A DNA stretch of 45,772 nucleotides, taken from the IMG/VR virus record IMGVR_UViG_3300032213_003134, positions 1-45,772 of that record. One strand, 5' to 3'. The DNA is from a virus. Numbering within the stretch: the first letter of the stretch is position 1; each line of letters begins with the position of its first letter. This document shows, piece after piece, positions 17,223 through 17,991 of this stretch. Both the position numbers and the translations under genes were made by a program. Below the pieces are notes generated by a model. That model saw only the letters and a list, made by a program, of their open reading frames with translations, had not been told where the DNA came from and made no database searches.

Positions 17223-17317
17223 TGGCGAAGAGTATTGGATTCGAACCAATGAAGCAGATTTTTGTCCGCTTGCCTTCTTAGCAGGAAGGTGCCTTCGACC
17301 AACTCGGCCAACTCTCC
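17223..17317 (-). tRNA. tRNA-Ser (anticodon GCT)
   Basis: Class II tRNA with a long variable arm. Acceptor GGAGAGT/ACTCTTC with one G-T pair, encoded CCA, and anticodon loop CTGCTAA (GCT, Ser AGC/AGU). T arm GGTTCGAATCC. Confidence 0.9.
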
Positions 17318-17324
17318 GTAACCC

Positions 17325-17401
17325 TGGTAGCGGGTGCAGGATTCGAACCTACGACCTCTGGCATATGAAACCAGCGAGAACGACCACTTCTCTAACCCGC
17401 A
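17325..17401 (-). tRNA. tRNA-Met (anticodon CAT)
   Basis: Anticodon loop TTCATAT gives CAT. Acceptor TGCGGGT/ACCCGCT with a T-T mismatch at the first pair, then A and encoded CCA. The anticodon stem lacks the three G-C pairs of initiator tRNA. It could also be a Ile2-type (lysidine) tRNA; Met elongator is the likeliest. Confidence 0.8.
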
Positions 17402-17403
17402 TC

Positions 17404-17480
17404 TGGAGTGGGTGACAGGATTCGAACCTGCATAAAAAGGATTTGCAGTCCTTGGCCTAGCCATTCAGCTACACACCCAC
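17404..17480 (-). tRNA. tRNA-Cys (anticodon GCA)
   Basis: Acceptor GTGGGTG/CACCCAC, discriminator T, encoded CCA, anticodon loop CTGCAAA (GCA, Cys). T arm GGTTCGAATCC. It is only two bases from tRNA-Met, so the two are processed from one precursor. Confidence 0.9.
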
Positions 17481-17916
17481 ACTAATAGTTATGGTGCCTG
17501 GTGCGCAATCCCCAGGTAAGCTTCATGACCGGGATAAAGGACCAGTCACTACACACTATAGCGCATGTCACCATATTGAAGTGCTATCGTGCCAATTTAG
17601 GAGTTGGGTGCTTCCCATCCAAAGCCGATGCAGTTATATCAGGATCAGTCGCCGGCCGCTGTGACCCGAATAGCGTATGCGTCCATACACGTTACCTTGA
17701 TAACACTTCAATATGGTATAATCTACCAAGCATGTTGTGCTTGTATCACAGTTAGTTATACCATAGTAAAACATACTAGTGAGCCGGTCTATCGCAGCCA
17801 TCGCAACTTTGCAGATCGTTTCCAATCTGTGTATCGTCTTTCTAGGCGAGCTGTATGATAGAGCTCCGCAAGTTCTCAGTGCAATTGCTTGCAAGGACAA
17901 CTAATATGCTTTACTA
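17481..17916. other. 436-base gene-free segment with nested inverted repeats, possible stable RNA
   Basis: No convincing coding frame. Inverted repeats: (a) ATGGTG (17491-17496) and TGCGC (17502-17506) pair with GCGCA (17561-17565) and CACCAT (17569-17574); inside is a 6-bp hairpin (GACTGG/CCGGTC on the minus strand). (b) 17570-17583 pairs perfectly with 17704-17717 over 14 bp, extended by four more pairs after a mismatch. (c) 17712-17721 pairs with 17756-17765 over 10 bp, enclosing CAAGCA/TGCTTG. These share ACCAT/ATGGT, so (a)-(b) and (b)-(c) compete. Lying between tRNA-Asp and tRNA-Cys, it recalls stable RNAs C and D of the T4 tRNA cluster; this is inference. Confidence 0.55.
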
Positions 17917-17991
17917 TGGCGGTCCCAAGGAGAATTGAACTCCTATCTGCGGCGTGACAAGCCGCCATACTAACCATTATACTATGAGACC
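17917..17991 (-). tRNA. tRNA-Asp (anticodon GTC)
   Basis: Acceptor GGTCTCA/TGGGACC with a mismatch or wobble internally, discriminator G, encoded CCA. Anticodon loop TTGTCAC (GTC, Asp). D arm contains GGTTAGTA. T arm GAGTTCAATTCTC. Confidence 0.88.

Follow-up and report, generated by a model that had tools for sequence, protein, structure and literature searches.

Bacteriophage T4 produces two stable RNAs, RNA C and RNA D (species 1 and 2), of 139 and 119 nt, whose genes rnaC and rnaD lie head to tail, 6 nt apart, and adjoin tRNA-Arg in the T4 tRNA cluster. The portion of PMC9697503 that covers them describes both as late RNAs on a northern blot, with unknown function. GOLLD and ROOL are structured RNAs of phages and prophages, often located near tRNA islands and likewise of unknown function according to the available part of PMC12286853. 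The manA and wcaG motifs, RNAs identified by comparative genomics, occur partly in T4-like phages and lie in potential 5′ UTRs of protein genes, as stated in the accessible sections of PMC2864571.

The segment studied here lies within a phage tRNA cluster, and we divide it into four units, A to D. Like RNA C and RNA D, these units are small, are encoded on the same strand as the tRNAs and have few nucleotides between neighbors. The sequence-only reading of this DNA had proposed an RNA comparable to T4 RNA C and RNA D. The comparison held for the setting but not for homology, which was rejected: nhmmer in both directions found none between the units and rnaC or rnaD, and the covariance model of unit C (R1), run without filters on the T4 stretch, reached at most 10.5 bits, with no match covering rnaC or rnaD well. 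In addition, no CCA-to-TGG clamp of the kind that closes units A-D was seen by eye in the T4 sequences. GOLLD and ROOL share the position near a phage tRNA island but are much larger than units A-D (54-161 nt), which lie directly between tRNAs, and their Rfam covariance models matched neither the window nor any of seven relative loci. Unlike manA and wcaG in their 5′ UTRs, units A-D are situated among tRNAs and correspond to no Rfam family. With Rfam 15 at the gathering score, only tRNAs were matched in the window; at E values up to 5, no family besides tRNAs was found in the segment; and at E values up to 3, no family covered unit C in the seven relative loci, where sub-threshold hits (Plastid-ycf2, miRNAs) were discarded as falling on tRNAs or resembling chance matches. 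No description of units A-D or of the clamp-and-joint organisation was found in the open-licence literature; a 2017 paper reportedly contains 224 candidate RNAs. The RNA families and their clamp-and-joint organisation thus appear to be new, while RNAs of phage tRNA clusters are a known kind.

Results

A structured segment between tRNA-Asp and tRNA-Cys

The window, that is, the whole stretch of DNA analysed, is a 45,772-base virus record carrying T4-like replication genes. Its clamp-loader region matches T4-like cyanophages at the DNA level, and its gp44 protein is nearest to that of Methylophilales phage Melnitz (62%). ARAGORN called six tRNAs in the cluster, all on the minus strand, and the segment was therefore read on that strand. 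The segment limits that had been assigned from sequence, 17481-17916, agreed with the ARAGORN calls, which place the end of tRNA-Asp at 17917 and the start of tRNA-Cys at 17480 (Table 1). The last bases of tRNA-Asp, GCCA, double as the outer strand of the unit A clamp. A promoter-like site, recognized by consensus match only, is located upstream of both a small gene (18215-17997) and the tRNA/RNA cluster.

The minus strand of the segment folded at -142.5 kcal/mol (z -4.3 against dinucleotide shuffles), an energy as low as none of 100 shuffles, and the plus strand gave a z of -3.3. A perfect inverted repeat of 14, which the segment contains, was found in 0 of 500 dinucleotide shuffles, where the longest was 13 and occurred once. 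Open reading frames of 30-88 aa are present in the segment, but we did not count them as genes, because the blocks of the segment evolve through compensatory base-pair changes. A single 436-nt RNA was also rejected, its parts being conserved apart from each other in other phages. Very probably, judging from these blocks and their pairing, the segment is made of four separate small structured RNA units placed head to tail on the minus strand, each closed by a terminal helix, or clamp. The longest helix of the segment, the 21-bp clamp of unit A, had been overlooked in the sequence-only reading.

Table 1. Positions of tRNAs, RNA units and their elements in the window.
Feature	Positions	Strand	Details
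Candidate sigma-70-like promoter	18249-18222	minus	TTGACA, 16 nt, TATAAT; 12 of 12 consensus bases
tRNA-Asp(GTC)	17991-17917	minus	ARAGORN; Rfam tRNA match
Unit A (putative)	17920-17760	minus	clamp 17920-17900 with 17780-17760, 21 bp
Joint of A and B clamps	17765-17760	minus	TATGGT
Unit B (putative)	17765-17712	minus	clamp 17765-17756 with 17721-17712, 10 bp (earlier helix three)
Joint of B and C clamps	17717-17712	minus	ACCATA
Unit C (putative)	17717-17570	minus	clamp 17717-17699 with 17588-17570, 19 bp; contains earlier helix two
Clamp P1 of C	17717-17699 with 17588-17570	minus	19 bp; 95.2% of cells paired
Hairpin P2 of C	17690-17684 with 17679-17673	minus	97.1% paired; GACG loop nearly invariant
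P3 of C	17667-17662 with 17647-17642	minus	99.0% paired
Pseudoknot of C	17656-17653 with 17627-17624	minus	4 bp; 100% paired, 68 of 68
Joint of C and D clamps	17575-17570	minus	TATGGT
Unit D (putative)	17575-17490	minus	clamp 17575-17569 with 17496-17490, 7 bp (sound part of earlier helix one)
tRNA-Cys(GCA)	17480-17404	minus	ARAGORN
tRNA-Cys(GCA), tRNA-Met(CAT), tRNA-Ser(GCT)	17223-17480	minus	downstream of segment; ARAGORN, Rfam

Neighboring clamps share 6-nt joints

Three overlapping inverted repeats had been reported in the segment and taken to force a choice between folds. Helix two (17570-17583 with 17704-17717, 14 perfect pairs) and helix three (17712-17721 with 17756-17765, 10 pairs) were exact, and the overlaps between the three helices are real. 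Helix one (17491-17506 with 17561-17574) is not continuous as written, pairing 16 bases with 14; it resolves into ATGGTG/CACCAT and a separate GCGC/GCGC, and relatives back the 7 bp of the unit D clamp (Table 1). The apparent competition arises because a clamp closes each unit and neighbors have their outermost 6 bases in common. Since the joint bases alternate between CCATA and TATGG, any joint is able to close the unit on either side. Assigning the joints to A and C gave a nested energy of -149.7 kcal/mol, while assigning them to B and D left A with 14 bp and C with 13 bp at -140.6 kcal/mol, both values excluding the pseudoknot and processing. By the nested model, all four cores can fold simultaneously for about 9 kcal/mol. 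Only the outer clamp ends trade, and the cores need no change. The proposed switch between exclusive folds found no support, each helix being the terminal clamp of a unit that occurs elsewhere without its present competitor. Judged from these pairs, the overlapping inverted repeats are a consequence of packing at 6-nt joints and not a switch.

Unit C belongs to a recurring pseudoknotted family

Covariation among relatives, a check that had been proposed for the pairs, was found and was strongest for unit C. Its alignment, A1, holds 68 sequences aligned by ordinary MAFFT and excludes repeats, hits truncated by contig ends and sequences more than 90% alike (105 reduced to 67); the sub-helix coordinates in Table 1 were derived from its columns. 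For the whole structure, 92.5% of 3288 pair cells were paired, and both sides changed in 45 of 49 pairs. The covariation score was 0.658 compared to 0.197 for shuffled alignments, and at most 0.126 when partners were slid by 1-3 columns. The pattern used to collect most C sequences fixed mainly unpaired positions, so this covariation was not created by the pattern.

In the pseudoknot, the loop of P3 pairs with the strand that precedes P4; two of the pairs are invariant and two covary, and the window row of A1 has GCCG paired with CGGC. An inner helix of 2 bp was 98.5% paired. P5 (72.5%) and the P4 hairpin (79.4%) were weaker, partly, we think, because loop types shift the alignment register. 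G-U cells outnumbered A-C cells by 68 to 19 in P1, 18 to 4 in P2 and 103 to 0 in P3, which indicates that the constraint acts on the RNA of the tRNA strand. Many unpaired bases are invariant in A1. In the window, model R1 matched 17726-17564 with 156.7 bits, a score that is partly by construction, as L002, which is near-identical, and a truncated row of the window are part of the model; the window copy likewise shows, again partly by construction, the model match, the 19-bp clamp, the GACG-loop hairpin and the pseudoknot of the family. By its covariation, C is the best supported of the four units.

Evidence for units A, B and D comes from few, related sequences. In nine sequences of A, 99.3% of 414 cells were paired, both sides changed in 9 of 46 pairs, and covariation was 0.240 compared to 0.147 for shuffles; the number of further pair types was not above shuffles. 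Two sequence types of the B clamp were observed, and pairing is kept in both. Three of the 7 pairs of the D clamp vary, with all five sequences still paired, and a proposed inner hairpin of D failed to hold in the alignment. In L002, a promoter-like TTGACA ... TATAAT sequence was seen by eye at about 2138-2176, directly before A with no tRNA between, so that the transcript may there have A as its first RNA.

Units recur apart from each other

In a blastn search with the segment, 240 loci gathered through neighboring proteins, or being the window itself (L001), gave a nearly full-length match only in L002 and the window. In the other loci the match split into sharp-ended blocks that coincide with A, B, C and D, most of them between tRNA genes of other arrays in uncultivated phages. 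Profile searches and pattern scans of IMG/VR, after removal of repeats of the same sequence, yielded 10 distinct copies of A, 9 of B, at least 115 of C and 5 of D, the window included; B matches weaker than 1e-7, several of them pattern-only and on tRNA-less loci, were excluded from these counts. In tRNA arrays of uncultivated phages, any one of the units can be found where the other three are missing. Within loci collected through proteins alone, the C model matched only the window and L002 in a first set of 81 sources, 11 of 79 in a second set and 0 of 80 in a third.

Of 115 distinct C copies listed, none had an opposite-strand tRNA at its locus and 89 were within 50 nt of a tRNA. tRNA-Glu(TTC) was the upstream tRNA in 31 of the 38 listed copies with a tRNA ending at most 12 nt upstream. 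C was single-copy in 23 of 24 carrying records, which reach 355 kb; the 24th had matches only at its two ends. A C pattern had no match in the contigs of the 84,980 GTDB species genomes, and the C model matched nothing in seven isolate phage records in two runs, of which only the second included a positive control. Blastn of the segment, two C sequences, B and three other gap modules against isolate phages returned nothing or chance pieces of 18-24 nt.

The order of units is combinatorial. A-B-C-D was seen in the window only, among 515 loci. B is preceded by A in the window, by C in L263 and L257, and by sequences ending like other clamps in L006, L007, L137 and L248, and it directly follows tRNA-Glu in L253 and L254, so that B meets different partners at one and the same joint. 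In L002 the place of B between A and C is taken by a different unit of about 80 nt (L002:2332-2412), and a similar start follows A in L137 and L247. Some copies lie at loci with no tRNA on the DNA examined: A in L017, D in L396, and C in L351, L277 and L386. The L017 copy of A is 97% identical. No tRNA lies on the 12.4 kb of L017, and by eye this copy is flanked by relatives of the small genes found on either side of the window's cluster. The stop codon of the upstream gene overlaps the first bases of A there, and the bases of A's own 5′ end, GCCATAGTAAA, recur behind A (L017:7536-7740), as if a neighboring unit had been lost through clamp recombination.

Other members of these arrays were also noted. 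L285:2025-2375 (minus strand) matched the permuted tmRNA model with 111 bits and the beta tmRNA model with 100.5 bits, in an array that also carries C. In two phage arrays (L127:10663-10737 and L118:8128-8202) ARAGORN called a tRNA with anticodon CTA, listed as Pyl and possibly an amber-reading tRNA.

Clamps on tRNA CCA ends across arrays

We examined 651 gaps of about 60-450 nt between consecutive tRNAs, shorter and longer gaps being excluded, for helices that start in the first 8 nt, counted from the base before CCA. Clamps of at least 13, 16 and 18 pairs were present in 165, 131 and 105 of the 651 gaps, compared to 16, 1 and 0 for dinucleotide shuffles; these counts are not a census, as many loci were picked for carrying C and near-identical contigs are included. 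As far as these arrays are concerned, clamps often start on the encoded CCA of a tRNA.

One exact clamp, a near-version of which is borne by A in several relatives, was scanned for as CCATATAAAAACACA ... TGTGTTTCTATATGG with 30-60 nt between. It encloses at least 95 distinct cores, which form 63 groups among those listed, compared to 95 groups for shuffled cores. In 74 of 95 listed cassettes the clamp begins exactly on the CCA of a called tRNA, and in 28 of 95 the clamp's last two Gs are also the first bases of the following tRNA. The upstream tRNAs among these 74 were tRNA-Lys(TTT) in 53 and tRNA-Gln(TTG) in 13, while tRNA-Lys(TTT) makes up 189 of 4661 called tRNAs. L276:2026-2099, L294:11455-11537 and L300:4437-4513 are examples of the constant frame and its exchangeable content. 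The pattern was absent from seven isolates (0 of 7), and the control recovered it in 4 of 4 records known to hold it.

Five further modules recur in inter-tRNA gaps: L147:395-587 (about 187 nt, 41 matches), L330:6041-6481 (204 nt, 27), L007:2014-2290 (226 nt, 17), L279:4675-4751 (81 nt, 14) and L082:3548-3786 (226 nt, 13). They look like more structured RNA families; three of the five had no blastn match in isolate phages. Single-linkage clustering placed 419 of 718 gaps in one group, because composite gaps chain modules together.

Discussion

We propose, with a probability of roughly 70%, that each of units A-D is an independent small RNA gene of a T4-like phage, released together with the tRNAs and protected by its clamp. 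The units and clamps, the C structure with its pseudoknot, the strand and the modular assortment are demonstrated by sequence and covariation. The fit of the clamps to the CCA and to the next tRNA suggests co-transcription and release by tRNA-processing enzymes. The units would be co-transcribed with the tRNAs from the minus strand, they would be cut out through 3′ maturation of the upstream tRNA at CCA and through RNase P at the next tRNA, and the freed RNAs would accumulate as stable species shielded by the clamp. Such joint release with the tRNAs is probable, but since A, C and D also occur at tRNA-less loci, tRNA processing would not be the sole route. Because the CCA of the tRNA itself supplies the outermost clamp pairs, these would be lost on release. 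In the window, little clamp would remain to B and D with the joints taken by A and C, the arrangement preferred by 9 kcal/mol in the nested model. The single-copy state of C in nearly all carrying records, together with its strong constraint, indicates that C does something for the phage. Tentatively, during infection the units could target, in trans, some component of translation or RNA metabolism, whether of the host or of the phage.

Alternatively, clamps and cores might be cis-acting processing elements that only space, protect or time the maturation of neighboring tRNAs, e.g. through masking of the CCA or stacking against the acceptor stem. The clamps do begin on tRNA CCA, and C mostly follows tRNA-Glu(TTC), but conservation of the C core, with its invariant unpaired bases and pseudoknot, far exceeds the needs of a spacer, A, C and D are also found at loci without tRNA, and most neighboring tRNAs have no such element, so we regard this explanation as unlikely. 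Somewhat less likely still are selfish mobile cassettes inserting at tRNA CCA ends. Sharp unit ends, combinatorial order, the 97% identity of A in L017 and the use of one clamp with many cores would suit them; however, C is single-copy in 23 of 24 carrying records and is under strong structural constraint, and homologous recombination between common clamps explains the exchange without transposition.

A riboswitch-like or processing switch built on the overlapping helices seems very improbable to us: the 6-nt joints can indeed pair to either side, but neighbors vary between phages, so this competition is not conserved, the four-unit order is confined to the window, and the cores fold in either state. 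We give equally little credence to self-cleaving ribozymes that excise themselves from the tRNA precursor. Small ribozymes have compact pseudoknotted folds with many invariant unpaired bases, as C does, but the Rfam searches at relaxed E values (up to 5 in the segment, up to 3 in the relatives) placed C in no family, and tRNA nucleases would suffice where units abut tRNAs. We therefore favor independent small RNA genes released with the tRNAs.

More speculatively, large phages may keep a cassette system for small RNAs within their tRNA arrays. In it, one constant clamp would take its outer pairs from the neighboring tRNAs (CCA and GG) and frame interchangeable cores, so that maturation of the tRNAs would set free an RNA set specific to each phage. 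If so, the highly variable cores that follow tRNA-Lys(TTT) and tRNA-Gln(TTG) would be directed at host targets that vary, e.g. defence or anticodon nucleases, and conserved ones, C among them, at a target that does not change.

Stable RNAs in a phage tRNA cluster have been known from T4 and are still without function. Unit C provides a family of more than 100 members whose pseudoknotted structure is firm, and it comes with a rule for the start and end of such RNAs; their processing and role thereby become testable. Our results suggest that the gaps in phage tRNA arrays, easily taken as spacers, often hold structured RNAs.
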